From Lobulomyces angularis (Eukaryota > Chytridiomycota > Chytridiomycetes > Lobulomycetales > Lobulomycetaceae): a stretch of 64,000 nt of DNA. Under the pieces are notes generated by a model. It was not told the origin of the DNA and did no database searches. It worked only from the letters and a program-made list of their open reading frames with translations. Every line of letters begins with the position of its first letter. The first letter of the stretch is position 1. Shown piece after piece: positions 30,925-61,720 of this stretch. Made by a program: the position numbers and the translations under genes. The stretch spans positions 1,855 to 65,854 of the forward strand of contig JADHYX010000047.1 in NCBI GenBank assembly GCA_027604685.1, given 5' to 3'.

Positions 30925-31837
30925 ATGACAAAAGAACTAAACAAAACTCGTATGTCAAAGATATTTTTTTCCTTTTTTACTAATTTTTTTAATTTTAATT
31001 TTTTAATTTTGTACAAAAATAGATTTAAGAGAACATTCTGATTGTGCTGAATCTATATCGAATAGTAAATTTAATGATGAAGAGGAAGAAGTCGTGGAGT
31101 TTGCTACCAAAAAACATCAAAGGTTTAATTTTTTAAAAATTTTTCGTAAATAATTTACCTTTATATAGACTTTTTAACCAACAAAATTCAAATTTTAAAT
31201 GTACTCATTGTAACTGCTCTGGAAAATTTACCCCTGCATTAAGAAAAGGTCCTTTGGGGTATTCATTTTTAGTGGTGAAGTTTTAACATTTTTAAATAGA
31301 CCGAGAACACTCTGTAATGCATGTGGTGTTTATTATAATCGTAATGGAAGTTTACCAGCGCATCGGAACTCCAATAACCTCGACCAACCACCTATAGAAA
31401 ACCGTGGTAGAAAGAAGCAAAAAGTTCCGATAGTGGAGGAAACCACTATAGTGACAATAAGAGGAGGAAAAATTACTGATGAAGTTAAGTTACCACAAAT
31501 ATACATTCCTTCCACATCCTTGCAAAGTGAGAAAGTTGTATATAACCTCAATCAAGGACAATACCAAGCAATACAACCAATATCCTGCTCAGCAACAACT
31601 ACCAACAATGGCAAATTTTATTTGGAAGAAAATAAAATTTGTTTTGTCGAAGAGAGTAAATTCAAAGATTTGAGAATAAAAACAGAGGAAGAATTTGAAA
31701 ATTTTACTGATACTGTATGCGAAGAAATCTTTAACTTTGATGATGTATTTGATCATACAAATAATCTATTCGCTACTAATTCTGATGGCTTATTTGGAGA
31801 GCAATGGCAAAAAAGTTTGCAAGTGTTAGAGCAATAA
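30925..31837 (+). CDS. GATA-type zinc-finger transcription factor
   Basis: Exon 1 is 30925-30949 (MTKELNKT) with a consensus GTATGT donor; exon 2 is 31023-31122. The single finger reads CTHCNCSGKFTPALRKG then PLGPRTLCNACGVYYNRNG, i.e. C-X2-C-X20-C-X2-C, longer than the X17 or X18 loop of most fungal GATA factors. TLCNACG is the family hallmark. A basic patch NRGRKKQKV follows as a likely nuclear signal and DNA-contact tail. The C-terminal 130 residues are acidic with FNFDDVFDHTNNLF, an activation-domain look. The target genes are unknown. A loop of 20 residues occurs in Ash1-type and some non-fungal GATA factors (recalled, not checked). Confidence 0.88.
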
Positions 31838-54298: not shown

Positions 54299-56343
54299 AT
54301 GCATACGAAAGTAAATACATCGCCCTTCTATTCATTAATGTATCCAATTCACATTAGGTTAGAGATACGTATGTGTCAGTTGCTGCACCATTTGCTGCTG
54401 CACCTGTAAAGGAAGTACGCTATTTTTACAATTTAACACAAATTTAAAATGAAAATTTACAATATAATTCTGTTTAGAAAATAACAATTATAACTAGAGA
54501 CAATATAAGAACATTAAAACCGCATTCAGAAGAATCCATCAAACGACAGCAACAATTAGTTCCAAAACCTAGAAGAGTTCGTCAACCTTATAATGAACAA
54601 CTACCAGTCAACACATCAAACAAAGCGAAACCTAAAATTTTAAACTTGGCTGAATTTGAGAAAGTCAGGGTAGTTAATATAAAAAGTCTCACTAAAATAA
54701 ATTTTCTGAACTTTAGAGCATTAGTACGTTTTTGAGTAAAGAAGAGCTTGAAAAAAGAAATACTGAAATCAATAATGCAAAATTTAATGCTGTCGAAGAA
54801 GCAAGATTACGAAAGGTAAATATTTAAATTCTTCTAGACAGTTCGTATGCACAAGATTAATTTTTTTTTATTTAAATATTGTTGTGAAAAATCCAGGAAA
54901 AAATGGAAGAGCATGATCACAAAAGAAGCGCTAATGCAAAATTAAACGAACTTGAACAAGAAGCTAAACAGAAAGCAAACTATTTATTGGCAAAAGCAAA
55001 AATGCAATTGGAAGAACAAGAAGATGATATCAAACATTTAAATGAATTGATGCTTTACGCTAAATGTGTTGCGATTCGTGATGTTCAAGTGGAGGAAAAG
55101 AAAATGATAATGCAAGAAAGAAAAGAGGAAGAGGCAAGGCTTGACGCCATGATGGAAGGGAAAAGGGTAGCAGAATTAAAAAAGCTTGAGGATAGAGAAA
55201 AGTGTAGAATTGAAGGTATGTAGTTCTCTAAGCCGGCTTTCATTTTTTTCTTTATGACAATTTTCATAGAATTAAGAAAAGGTGCATCGAAAATCAGAAC
55301 TCAAATTGAAGAAAGAAGGGAGGCTGCTTTACTTGAACAAGAAAGAAGAGATCAAGAAACAAAACAAATTCTTCAAACCATTGCCAATATGAACGAACAG
55401 GACAAAAAAGATAAACAGGCTAAAATAGAAAAGTCTAAACTTTTAATGCAAGAAGTAATATGACTAATAAATAAAATAAAAGTTTACTTAATGCAAACAA
55501 TTAGGTCGCCAAAGCTAATCAGGAGTCTACCGAGAGGAAAAGGCTGAATAAAGTAAAAGAGGAAGAGATAGATAAAAAAGTTTTGAAATATATTCTAGAC
55601 AAGGAGAGTAGAGAAATTGAAAATGATAGATTACTAGCGGTGAAGAAAGCGGAAAGAGAAAAAGAATTGGCGCGATTAAGAGCAGCGCAAGAGAAAATTA
55701 GTGATAAGCAAACTCAACAAGACTTACTTAGAGCCAAGAGGGCCTTTGAGAGCTACGAAAGAGAGTGGAGAAAAAAGGAAAAAGAAAGTATAGAAAAAGA
55801 AATAAGACTTTCCAAAGAGCTAAAAGAAGAAAGACTGAAGCAACAACATTCAAGGGAAAATGCAGTTGCTTTTGAAGCTCACAAGCTGAAACTAGAGTTT
55901 TTTGAAAATATTGAAAAACAAAAAAAGGTAGAAGAGAAGATAAAAGAAGAAGAAAGAATTAAAGCAGAAAAAAATAAAATTTATGCAAAAGAAGTTAAAG
56001 TAAGTGGATTACTTTACACAATTAAGTGATACTCATAATAATTATAGGCTCAGATTGCAGAAAAGGAAGCCAACAAGCGTAAAGAAAGGGAGGAATTTTT
56101 CATGGAGGGAATAAGGCTAGCGAAAGAAAGAAAAGAAAAACTACTGAAAATAGAGCAAACTAAGCAAAGAAAGATTCAAGTAATACAAAACTTCTAATGA
56201 AACCTTTATTTAATTGTTTTTAGGAATTAAAATCCTTAGGTGTACCTCAAAAATATTGCAGTGAAATTGAAAAAAAATCTCATGATAAGGAAAGGTTAAC
56301 AGTAACAATGACTCAAAAAAAGGACAAAGTGAATGCAAAATAA
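54299..56343 (+). CDS. CFAP45: Cilia and flagella associated protein 45 (CFAP45)
   Basis: A microtubule inner protein of motile axonemes. The first exon is probably MHTK (54299-54310), then VRDTYVSVAAPFAAAPVKE. Conserved features: ITIITRDNIRTL, LAEFEKVR, STFLSKEELEKRNTEINNAK, MLYAKCVAIRDVQVEEKKM, EARLDAMMEGKR, EKELARLRAAQEKISDKQTQ, LLRAKRAFESYEREWRKKEK and the C-terminal ELKSLGVPQKYCSEIEKK, all in CFAP45 order. It is almost entirely a charged coiled coil of roughly 500 residues over about ten exons. The C-terminal Gly-x-Pro-x-Lys-Tyr-Cys-x-Glu block is diagnostic. It shows the organism has, or recently had, a motile flagellum. Confidence 0.93.
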
Positions 56344-56562: not shown

Positions 56563-58206
56563 ATGAACCATCATAGATATCACCCTGTCAGGAAAAACAA
56601 TAAATTAAATAAAAGCAAATCTAGGCCCATACTATGGTGTGTTTTCATTTCATTAGCCGTAATTTTTTTGTTCGCGGTTCACAATTCTGATGGTGTAAAA
56701 GAAAAATCCAGTCTTCTGAAATCAACTTCAAAAAATGAAAAATCCAAAGCCCATCAACAAAACGAGCAGCAACAAAATTTAAACTTAAAAAACAATTATT
56801 CAGTAAAAGAGGAAGAAAAAATTTCCAACACTGAAGAATCAAAAGATCAATCACAACAAGTTGCTGTTAAAATAAAACCTCCAACTGAGCTTTTAATTGA
56901 AGTGTTAAAAAAAGTTGAATGTGATAGGTTTTTCAGAAAATTAATTTAATTGTTTTTTTTAAATTTTTTTTTAGAAAAAGTGAAAAGGGTGATGTTCTTT
57001 CTGTAGACTATACAGGAACACTATTTGAAACTGGTAACTTAATTTTTTTAATTTTTTTTTTTGATGAAGCTGCTAGATAATTAAAATATTTTGTTACATA
57101 GAAATAGATTGTATTTTAATCATTTTATTTAATTAAATTTAGGAGAAAAATTTGATTCTTCCTTAGATTCAAAAAGACCATTTGTTTTTACTATTGGTAA
57201 GGGTCAAGCCATTAAAGGTTGGGACCTCGGACTTCTAGGTTTGCATATATTTTCTACACAATAACTTAAATTTATATTTGATAGATATGTGTGGTATGTA
57301 AACAAAATTAAACTTCAATGTATATTTTGTTTAGTTGGGGAAGAGCGAAAGCTAACGATTCCTAGTAAACTTGGGTATGGGGATGCAGGGTATACCAGTT
57401 TAATCAAAGGCGGTGCTGCTTTAGTTTTTGAAGTTAAATTATTGGTATTCTTCATCTCTTGATATTATTTAACTTTTTTTGTTAATTTTAGGAATTTAAG
57501 AATCCCAAGTTGGAAATGGTTGGACCAACTGTTCCTAAAGTTGAAGTGACAGTAGAGAAAAAAGCTGATGAAATCACATCCAAGGTTTTCCTTGATATTG
57601 CAATTGGAGACCGAGAAGCTAAAAGAATCGTAATTGGATTGTATGGAAATGCATTGCCCCTTACAACCGAAAATTTTAGGGCATTAGCTACTGGAGAAAA
57701 GGGTTTTGGGTTTAAGGGTAAATTGATATTGGTATTTATAGCAACTGAATGTTTTTAGGTTCAAAGTTTCATAGAGTAATAAAAAATTTTGTAATTCAAG
57801 GTGGAGATTTTACTAGAGGAGATGGAACAGGAGGGAAGTCAATTTATGATGGAAAATTTAAGGATGAAGGTACAGTTTGAGTTGAAGTTGTTTTTTTATT
57901 TTAATTTTTTTTTAAGGTTTTCCATTTAAGCACTTTGAGGCAGGACTTTTATCCATGGCAAATAGTGGGAGAGATACTAACGGTTCTCAGTTTTTTATAA
58001 CATGTGCTGCAACATTGTAATGTTATCATGTTATTTTTTATAAAATTTTTAATTGATTATGTAGGTGGTTAGATGGAAAACATGTTGTGTTTGGAAAAGT
58101 AATTGAAGGTTTAGATTTTATTTTAAATGAAGTTCAGCAAGTTGAAACTGGTGCCCACGACAAACCAAGTATTGATGTAACAATTAAAGATTGTGGTGTA
58201 TTATAG
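56563..58206 (+). CDS. Membrane-anchored FKBP-cyclophilin fusion (dual immunophilin)
   Basis: One frame joins two peptidyl-prolyl isomerases. N-terminus: basic tail [20 protein letters not shown], then a signal-anchor helix [18 protein letters not shown], then a Gln/Lys/Asn linker. The FKBP domain is FKBP2-like: [64 protein letters not shown]. The pocket residues Tyr, Phe-Asp, Phe, Ile, Trp, Tyr and Phe are kept; Glu-Val is Gln-Ala. A phase-0 intron links KLL to [12 protein letters not shown], and the cyclophilin-B-like domain follows: [69 protein letters not shown]. Active-site Arg, Phe, Gln, Phe, Trp and His are present. Likely an ER foldase. An alternative is two adjacent genes, but no stop separates them. 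Confidence 0.88.
57285..57293 (+). other. 9-nt microexon in the FKBP domain
   Basis: Bases ATATGTGTG lie between a 46-nt intron (57239-57284, ending GATAG) and a 41-nt intron (57294-57334, GTATGT..TTAG). Splicing gives GLL-D-M-C-V-GEERK, matching the FKBP2 family motif LLGMCEGEKRK. Without it the motif and frame are lost, so the microexon is well supported by homology. Confidence 0.82.
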
Positions 58207-59957: not shown

Positions 59958-61720
59958 ATGATAAATTATAAAGTATTAAAAATTTCTACGAATGTTGTAA
60001 ATAAAAGGTTTTTTTCAACAACATTTCTAAAATCTGAACAATTAAAATGTGCGATTGTTGGGTCTGGTCCAGGTAACTATTTTTAAATCATCAAAAAGGA
60101 AAACCTTAGTAAGTCCTTTGAATAGCCGCTTTTTATACTGCAATTCATTTAATTAAAAATACCAAACACGATATTAAAGTTGATATGTTCGAAAAACTTC
60201 CTTGTCCCTTTGGCCTAGGTATTTCTTAAAATTTAACGCAAAATTTAATAATTTACGAAGTCAGGTTTGGAGTAGCTCCTGATCATCCAGAAGTGAAGGT
60301 TTCTTAAATATAAAATTTGTTTTTATTTTTTATTTTACTTTTATTTTTTGAATTGCACTCCCACAATAGAACGTTTTACACAAATTTGATGCTTTTGCTT
60401 TATCTGAACCCAAATTTAACTTCTACGGGAATGTTACGATTGGGAAAGATATTTCTTTATCAGATTTACAAGAAGCATACAATTTCACAGTTTTAGCATA
60501 TGGATCCGAAAAAGATAATGAATTATATATTAAAAATGAGCACTCCAAAAATGTTTTTAGTGCTAGAGCCTTTGTTGGATGGTAAATTATTATTTACTCA
60601 CTTAAACATTTTTTGATGAAAAAAAATGTAATTTAGGTATAATGGACATCCGGAATTTTTCAATTTGAATCCAGACTTGAGCAATGTAAGAGAAGTTTCT
60701 ATAATTGGAATGGGAAATGTCTCGCTAGATTGCGCCAGATTGTTGCTTTCTCCTCCGAGTGCTTTGGAAAACACTGATATTACCAAACACGCTTTTGAAG
60801 TATTAAGAAATAGTAAAGTAGAGCGGGTGCGAATATTAGGAAGAAGAGGACCAATGGAGGTATTTTTTTATTATTTACTGTACTTTATTTTCGCTATTTA
60901 GGTTGCGTTTACTTCCAAAGAACTAAGAGAAATGGATTCTATACCAAATTTGAAATTTAAAACTGATTTAGCACTTTTGAAAAATGCATTAGAAGATTCA
61001 AAAAATTCTTTATTGTTATCAAAAGATAGACCTAGAAAGCGGCTGTTGGAAAACTTGAATAAATTTTTTAAGAAAAATATGGAAGGTTCATCGAAAAAAA
61101 CATTTCAAATAGACTTTTTGAAATCTCCAAAAGAAGTTATTTTAAATGAAGATGGTTCATTGCATAGTTTAAAAGTGGAAAAAAATGAACTTTGCGAAAA
61201 TGGAAAGGTAGAAGGAACCAACATTTTTGAAGAAATTAGGAGTGACATGATAATAAAAAGTGTAGGTTATAAATCTGTTGCTTTAGAAGGCTTGCCTTTC
61301 AATGAAAAGAAGGGATTTGTTCCGAATATCAGTGGAAGAGTTGTAGACGCAAATGTATGTAAATAATTAATATTAATGCAATTTAAACAGCAAACAATAT
61401 AGAGCACTGTTATAGCAGGATTGTATGTTTCAGGATGGCTGAAGAGAGGACCAACTGGTGTTATCGCTTCTACAATGTTCGATGCAAATGAAACAGCAGG
61501 TGCAATTTTGAAAGATTTGGAAGAATCTCCTCAAAAGCTCGATCAAGCGAAAACTGGATTTGAGGCAATTTCGAAACGTTTGAACGTAAAAAGAATAGTA
61601 ACTTTTACAGATTGGAAAAAAATTGAAAAACATGAATTTGATGAAGGAATAAAGGTGGGGAAAGTTAGAGAAAAACTTTCAAATATTGACGAAATGTTGC
61701 GTATTTGTGATAAACTATAA
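59958..61720 (+). CDS. ARH1: NADPH:adrenodoxin (ferredoxin) oxidoreductase, mitochondrial
   Basis: An FAD enzyme passing electrons from NADPH to mitochondrial ferredoxin for Fe-S cluster, heme A and CoQ synthesis. The presequence MINYKVLKISTNVVNKRFFS leads to the FAD motif CAIVGSGPAAFYTAIHL (split by an intron), MFEKLPCPFGL, FGVAPDHPEVK, the NADP motif VSIIGMGNVSLDCARLLL, RRGPMEVAFTSKELREM, IIKSVGYKSV and the C-terminal YVSGWLKRGPTGVIASTM with DANETAGAIL. These are in family order. About nine exons. The minus-strand 7TM gene starts only 110 bp upstream, so the two may share a promoter. Confidence 0.95.

Follow-up and report, generated by a model that had tools for sequence, protein, structure and literature searches.

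A predicted single-chain FKBP2–cyclophilin B fusion with a putative membrane anchor in the chytrid Lobulomyces angularis

The stretch of Lobulomyces angularis DNA analyzed here (64,000 nucleotides of contig JADHYX010000047.1, hereafter the window) carries on its forward (+) strand, on which all features described below lie, a gene at 56563..58206 that is predicted to encode 405 amino acids in nine exons (exons 1-5: 56563-56927, 56975-57033, 57143-57238, 57285-57293, and 57335-57444; exons 6-9: 57492-57717, 57759-57869, 57917-58016, and 58065-58206). The gene reads from an ATG at 56563 to a TAG closing at 58206, the limits given in a preliminary description of the locus, and the 405 codons of the spliced frame translate without an internal stop. 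Its eight predicted introns (47, 109, 46, 41, 47, 41, 47, and 48 nt) all have GT-AG boundaries, and in the first, seven-intron model each intron was checked and found to yield a stop codon when singly retained. Pfam identifies two domains in the product, FKBP_C (PF00254, aa 120-213, E 2.2e-31) and Pro_isomerase (PF00160, aa 247-404, E 2.7e-42), both so far above the cut-off that a chance match is excluded. Together with the intact frame and the eight GT-AG introns, these domains confirm the continuous spliced reading from an FKBP2-like into a cyclophilin-B-like domain that had been proposed at the outset, including the short phase-0 intron following the residues KLL near the domain boundary (57445-57491, 47 nt). 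That initial frame was right as a single fusion frame, but it lacked three residues (D-M-C), as does the annotated protein that constitutes the best match to the fusion (P0001, HK099_001140 of Clydaea vesicula; Lobulomycetales, Chytridiomycota).

The upstream neighbor (54888-56029) is a coiled-coil gene with two exons matching the trichohyalin-plectin-homology family PF13868, a domain type known from cilia and flagella and, as such, fitting for a zoosporic fungus. Downstream, exons at approximately 59980-60585 resemble what we take to be an adrenodoxin-reductase-type flavoprotein (GSGPG, then FGVAPDHPEVK), with no Pfam family found in the one exon scanned. An open frame at 31214-31837 contains an LCNACGVYY motif, presumably akin to a GATA-type zinc finger.

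The three missing residues can be accounted for by a predicted microexon of 9 nt (57285-57293, ATATGTGTG, encoding D-M-C and including C176). The apparent 96-nt intron at 57239-57334 contains ATATGTGTG preceded by AG and followed by GT; a microexon flanked by GT-AG introns of 46 and 41 nt is the better reading. Without it, the frame reads GLLVGEERK where, in sequence comparison, FKBP2 proteins carry GLLDMCVGEKRK or similar, and the in-frame addition of D-M-C restores both the LLDMCV motif and the second FKBP2 cysteine of the fusion. LLDMCV is the commonest form at this site among 94 FKBP2-like proteins (P0204-P0295, P0121, and P0122, two of them without a match to the pattern), being present in 37, with LLDMCI in a further 23, which together make 60/94. 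When the intron was dinucleotide-shuffled 50,000 times with the first and last six bases fixed, an in-frame microexon of 3-30 nt arose 2650 times and one of 9 nt 495 times, but no 9-nt in-frame exon encoding MC was obtained, and only two shuffles gave any in-frame 3-30 nt exon with MC. Very short exons are, moreover, not unique in this genome, with a 14-nt exon occurring in both ordinary cyclophilin B gene models. The reading implicit in the annotation, in which the FKBP domain would have lost three residues, was rejected in favor of the microexon on the basis of the splice sites and the shuffle result. The fusion thereby presents the FKBP2 cysteine pair, C120 and C176, the latter contributed by the predicted microexon. 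By position, this pair is taken to be equivalent to the cysteines that form a disulfide in FKBP13, and C176 is by analogy the likely disulfide partner of C120. The microexon would consequently correct a public gene model, that of Clydaea vesicula P0001, annotated without D-M-C and without a structural cysteine.

The FKBP2-type domain (aa 120-213, 56920..57444) is encoded by exons 1-5, and its best solved relatives by sequence are the FKBP2 structures 4nnr and 2pbc. The cyclophilin-B-type domain (approximately aa 244-405, 57582..58203) is encoded by exons 6-9 and ends in CGVL, and its best solved relatives by sequence (8cu5, 4frv, 4fru, and 3ich) are all titled cyclophilin B. Cyclophilin B chains in the PDB score 243-230 bits against this half, compared with at most 194 for chains named cyclophilin A and 207 for 2haq, which is titled cyclophilin A. 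A fold search likewise returned a putative cyclophilin B as first match; its best 50 of 747 matches were, by their titles, cyclophilins or complexes containing one, and it was silent on the FKBP half. The ER-type identity assigned to the protein in the preliminary description is in this way supported for both halves.

Phylogenetic trees of these short domains agree with an FKBP2 and cyclophilin B reading, without proving it. In the cyclophilin tree (48 rows, drawn from 23 of the best 120 listed proteins and two cyclophilin Bs of the same genome, after removal of stretches that span less than some 130 residues and of second matches at nearly the same position), the fusion falls outside a 29-row clade (96/90) made up of FCBPs (FKBP-3TPR-cyclophilin proteins), plant rows and, by our own labeling, mostly cytosolic-type rows; cyclophilin B rows lie on the side of the fusion, with no closer placement. 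In the FKBP tree (45 rows, from 36 listed proteins and three incomplete FKBP rows of the same genome, with short stretches dropped), the fusion is located among FKBP2s of chytrids and Mucoromycota and one rotifer (90/89, then 84/75), and two FCBP rows group with two FKBP12-like fragments (98/89). Placing the fusion with non-FKBP2 rows is only 0.24 log-likelihood units lower and is not rejected (AU p 0.479), and the basis for the FKBP2 label is therefore similarity, together with the cysteine pair and the PDB matches.

Most pocket residues are preserved in both domains. The FKBP half keeps the equivalents Y134, F145, D146, F155, I165, W168, Y191, and F208; in what is assumed to be FKBP12 numbering, the residues retained are Y26, F36, D37, F46, I56, W59, Y82, I91, and F99. 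By the same assumed numbering, the equivalent of E54 is Q, as in the FKBP2s compared, R42 is replaced by S151 and V55 by A164, and the 80s loop is altered, reading Y-T-S-L-I-K at residues 87-92. The cyclophilin half keeps R294, F299, Q302, F352, W360, and H365, among which R294 is presumed to be the catalytic arginine and W360 the tryptophan of the cyclosporin A pocket; in presumed CypA numbering, R55, F60, Q63, A101, N102, Q111, F113, W121, L122, and H126 are retained, A103 is S, and M61 is V300. Over 48 cyclophilin domains, the M61 position is occupied by M in 46, L in one, and V in the fusion alone. The earlier statement that both active sites look intact consequently holds for most of the pocket, but not for the R42, V55, and M61 equivalents or for the 80s loop, changes that could lower activity or drug binding. 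Both sites are likely to be active, though their activity may be changed, and binding of FK506 would appear less sure than binding of cyclosporin.

The N-terminal region of the fusion is predicted to provide a membrane-spanning signal anchor (aa 22-40, 56626..56682). Hydropathy peaks at 2.39 over these residues, the 21 residues that precede them carry a net charge of +7, and an AlphaFold model of P0001 places a helix at 22-41, all of which fit, as a prediction, the signal anchor initially proposed. The model, computed from 29 sequences (mean pLDDT 75.3, pTM 0.50), displays two folded domains and long low-confidence stretches at 44-92 and 217-232, the first of them, with pLDDT below 50, falling within a low-complexity and mostly predicted disordered stalk (aa 41-106, 56683..56880). 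A further AlphaFold model of P0001 resolves the FKBP part better (mostly >90) and the cyclophilin half poorly, its alignment being poor in cyclophilins. Both models correspond to P0001 without the microexon residues, and neither implies a fixed arrangement of the two domains. The lumenal location and the orientation of the chain are likewise predictions, and a mitochondrial or cleaved-signal reading could also be compatible with a short helix preceded by basic residues.

The two ends of the protein set it apart from its presumptive relatives. The fusion terminates in CGVL and has no KDEL-type tail, and its FKBP tail reads on as KLEMVGP. All 16 FKBP2s recognized as chytrid from our reading of organism names (14 single-domain and two double) end in an ER-retrieval-like [DE]L, and an EL or DL end is found in 82 of the 92 proteins P0204-P0295, which were new in a third protein search that lists the best 120 of 415 matches. 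The hydrophobic core starts at residue 26 in the fusion, whereas it starts at residues 4-9 in chytrid FKBP2s (10 proteins measured). Fusion and relatives so compared, the fusion lineage may, in our reading, have exchanged ER retrieval for membrane tethering. A hydrophobic stretch C-terminal to the FKBP domain was observed in at least 10 of 98 FKBP2-like proteins, those without the end-of-domain pattern being skipped. Nine of these (P0157, P0159, P0161, P0210, P0220, P0221, P0228, P0231, and P0256) have, as we read them, Mucoromycota names, and P0165 is the tenth. Other fungi may thus tether FKBP2 at the end opposite to that bearing the anchor in the fusion.

A search of the 20.76 Mb assembly (533 contigs) provides the genomic context for both halves. 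The PF00254 profile matches five places, two of which belong to the fusion, and the others are two FKBP12-like loci with the motif VPQMSLGQ (L001 and L002, on contigs C455 and C290) and a locus on C516 with the motif MSVGG that is of nuclear type by tree position. The exons of L001 and L002 are closely similar, and the two may form a duplicate pair. With a chytrid FKBP2 as query and an E limit of 10, six matches were obtained, all in the same four loci, and no second FKBP2-type gene was found in the assembly among the matches listed, where small exons or missing sequence could hide one. PF00160 yields 30 exon-level matches, including two ordinary cyclophilin Bs of 195 and 196 aa (L008 on C55 and L013 on C31), each beginning with a hydrophobic stretch that resembles a signal peptide and ending in KEEL. 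These are two close copies of each other, with nine predicted exons apiece, one of them of 14 nt. The cyclophilin half of the fusion is 64-65% identical to L008 and L013, and its origin as a recent tandem copy of either is not supported: tree placement is loose, constraining them to group lowers the log-likelihood by 11.39 units (AU p 0.122, not rejected), and intron positions, as read, differ from those of the fusion.

Protein searches place the same architecture in a second zoosporic fungus. P0001 of Clydaea vesicula displays the same fusion in a non-identical sequence, in which, the microexon apart, four of 402 aligned residues differ (398 agree), making an assembly error very unlikely and answering positively the early suggestion that the domain order be sought in zoosporic fungi. 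In the first protein search, which scored 7975 candidates sharing most words, both Pfam domains occur in four among the best 120 of 7950 matches: P0001, built as here, P0116 and P0119, built as FKBP-TPR-cyclophilin, and P0018, built as cyclophilin-cyclophilin-FKBP. The last (a JGI protein of 519 aa) is a mixed build that fits neither the CFBP (cyclophilin-linker-FKBP) nor the FCBP type as described. Both domains occur in P0001 only among the 84 matches listed in the second search, and PF00160 is absent from the best 120 of 415 in the third, the length limits of which excluded proteins as long as P0001.

The question of one chain or two genes centers on exon 6, where the cyclophilin domain starts in the same open frame (57492-57758) that carries the FKBP2 tail (EFKN). 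The exon begins at its splice acceptor with EFKNPKLEM, the C-terminal tail of the FKBP2 part, which continues unbroken into the inter-domain linker (aa 214-243, 57492..57581), the gap between the two Pfam matches being 33 residues. Among the tails of 14 single-domain chytrid FKBP2s (e.g., ELLEIKNVRNEL or ELLEIKNRPVKDEL), 10 have N at the position of the fusion's EFKN according to a pattern of our own, and a gap-free alignment by eye with the Fimicolochytrium FKBP2 (P0204) leads at the former end to NPKLEM-V in the fusion versus NVRNEL-stop, so that KLEM might possibly be a relic of a retrieval tail. The presence of FKBP tail and cyclophilin start in one exon argues against two adjacent genes merged by gene prediction, namely an anchored FKBP2 expressed by reading through the KLL intron and a cyclophilin starting at Met222 (57516). 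Such genes could make use of the in-frame ATG at 57516 and of the stop met after five codons (KLLVFFIS*) when the intron at 57445-57491 is retained, which would leave an anchored FKBP only; yet the two parts are separated by nothing but those 47 nt, the FKBP2 tail sits in the cyclophilin exon, and the product from Met222 would lack a signal peptide in spite of its cyclophilin-B-like domain. Furthermore, AATAAA is absent from 56871-57778, and the weaker ATTAAA, present four times in the FKBP part (57080-57307), recurs only at 58183. With the second public gene model carrying the same fusion, two merged genes become an exceedingly improbable explanation, rejected on account of the shared exon and this agreement. 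The same two observations support the single chain asserted in the preliminary description. In agreement with its remark on the lack of a second signal sequence, the cyclophilin domain directly follows the FKBP part without a signal peptide of its own.

If the fusion is real, its N-terminal stretch might still be a cleaved signal peptide, which would make the enzyme a soluble double isomerase, secreted or poorly retained. The lack of a KDEL-type tail and the ordinary N-terminal hydrophobic cores of chytrid FKBP2s would be in line with such a protein, but the start of the core at residue 26 behind a +7 flank, rather than at residues 4-9, points weakly to an anchor, and cleavage is considered rather unlikely. 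Descent of the fusion from an FCBP that lost its TPR part and acquired an anchor would account for the identical domain order, and a grouping of the fusion with the two FCBP rows is not rejected by AU tests (p 0.244 for the cyclophilin and 0.31 for the FKBP, or 0.333 without P0018). The best trees, however, put FCBP FKBPs with FKBP12-like fragments and FCBP cyclophilins in the 29-row clade that excludes the fusion, and the FKBP domain of the fusion is closer to five chytrid FKBP2s (63-68% identity) than to two FCBPs (54% and 62%). FCBPs are, in addition, described in the consulted portions of the main survey from apicomplexans, ciliates, dinoflagellates, oomycetes, and diatoms, and not from fungi (PMC6316441). 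Descent from an FCBP is hence disfavored, though not rejected by the AU tests, and appears very unlikely. A genuine FKBP2–cyclophilin B fusion, ER-type by family, is well supported at the sequence level, and the 405-aa chain, with its predicted anchor and FKBP2-type and cyclophilin-B-type domains, quite probably serves the secretory-pathway lumen as a membrane-tethered double prolyl isomerase, with splicing, tethering, and joint action of the domains as predictions.

In the mechanism proposed for such a membrane-tethered isomerase, the helix at aa 22-40 would enter the membrane as a type II signal anchor, with the basic N-terminus left on the cytosolic side. The stalk, with some 65 mostly disordered residues, would keep the FKBP2 domain off the membrane, a C120-C176 disulfide like that of FKBP2 would lock its fold, and the linker, some 30 residues long, would allow both active sites to act in turn on one nascent secretory or membrane protein. 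Since chytrid FKBP2s and the cyclophilin Bs of the same genome have retrieval-like tails and the fusion has none, the anchor would take the place of KDEL-receptor retrieval. The fusion probably originated when an FKBP2 gene lost its stop and read into a cyclophilin B copy devoid of a signal peptide. It appears somewhat probable that the fusion represents a third class of dual-family immunophilin, independently evolved and the first of its kind in fungi and in the secretory pathway, in which a stand-alone FKBP2 was given up and welded to a duplicated cyclophilin B, and KDEL-type retrieval was traded for a tether, to yield a processive two-headed isomerase at the ER membrane.

Why two unrelated families of prolyl isomerases share the ER, and whether they act sequentially on a shared client, is difficult to test as long as the enzymes are separate. 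In an organism where, as far as the assembly shows, FKBP2 is apparently present only in joined form, one could ask whether the pair acts processively, and the fusion would also allow one to ask whether tethering substitutes for KDEL-type retrieval. On a broader level, the fusion widens a group that is described, in the consulted portions of the survey, as consisting of CFBPs in prokaryotes and FCBPs in unicellular eukaryotes (PMC6316441).

That survey (Barik, 2018; PMC6316441) distinguishes, in the parts consulted, these two dual-family builds (278 and 40 sequences, respectively), and a text search of its main text finds neither "fungi" nor "fungal". Consulted parts of an earlier account of prokaryotic CFBPs mention two doubtful eukaryotic entries with unusual features (Barik, 2017; PMC5852385), and the table parts of a study of sixteen fungal repertoires list ER FKBPs and cyclophilins as stand-alone proteins (PMC1618848). 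By title and start of abstract, no fungal or ER-type FKBP-cyclophilin fusion was found among the open-access papers listed in literature searches. The contrast drawn at the outset with FKBP-TPR-cyclophilin and bacterial types agrees with the survey as consulted (PMC6316441).

Several known systems share individual features with the fusion. The domain sequence, the cysteine pair, and the LLDMC motif are those of FKBP2/FKBP13 (yeast Fpr2 type), whereas the 14 single-domain chytrid FKBP2s are stand-alone proteins (140-163 aa) that have a hydrophobic N-terminus and end in [DE]L. The cyclophilin half resembles cyclophilin B (PPIB), including that of the same genome, but the fused copy has neither the signal-peptide-like start nor the KEEL end of the ordinary proteins. 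Chytrid tandem isomerases known from automatic gene models, either FKBP2-FKBP2 (P0121, P0122) or CypB-CypB (P0008), also combine two domains with one hydrophobic N-terminus, although they double one family instead of joining two. P0121 and P0122 (Entophlyctis helioformis and Chytriomyces sp. MP71) end in SDEL and KEEL, and the CypB-CypB doubles P0008 (Chytridiales sp. JEL 0842) and P0013 (JGI) have a hydrophobic N-terminus and no KDEL tail; doubled secretory isomerases may thus recur. CFBPs (bacterial) share with the fusion the presence of both families in one chain and a flexible linker, but they are prokaryotic, as far as the survey was consulted, and have the opposite order (PMC6316441), the fusion placing its FKBP at 120-213 and its cyclophilin at 247-404. 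FCBPs, including P0116 and P0119, come closest in layout, with FKBP first and cyclophilin last in one eukaryotic chain. Nevertheless, the fusion has no TPR match (Pfam finds FKBP_C and Pro_isomerase only), bears a predicted anchor, and has ER-type domains, whereas the domains of the two FCBP sequences used group in the best trees with FKBP12-like and non-cyclophilin-B rows, and the hosts named for FCBPs in the survey as consulted are alveolates, oomycetes, and diatoms (PMC6316441). Judged by architecture, the fusion would accordingly count as a dual-family immunophilin in the broad sense, and as neither an FCBP nor a CFBP.
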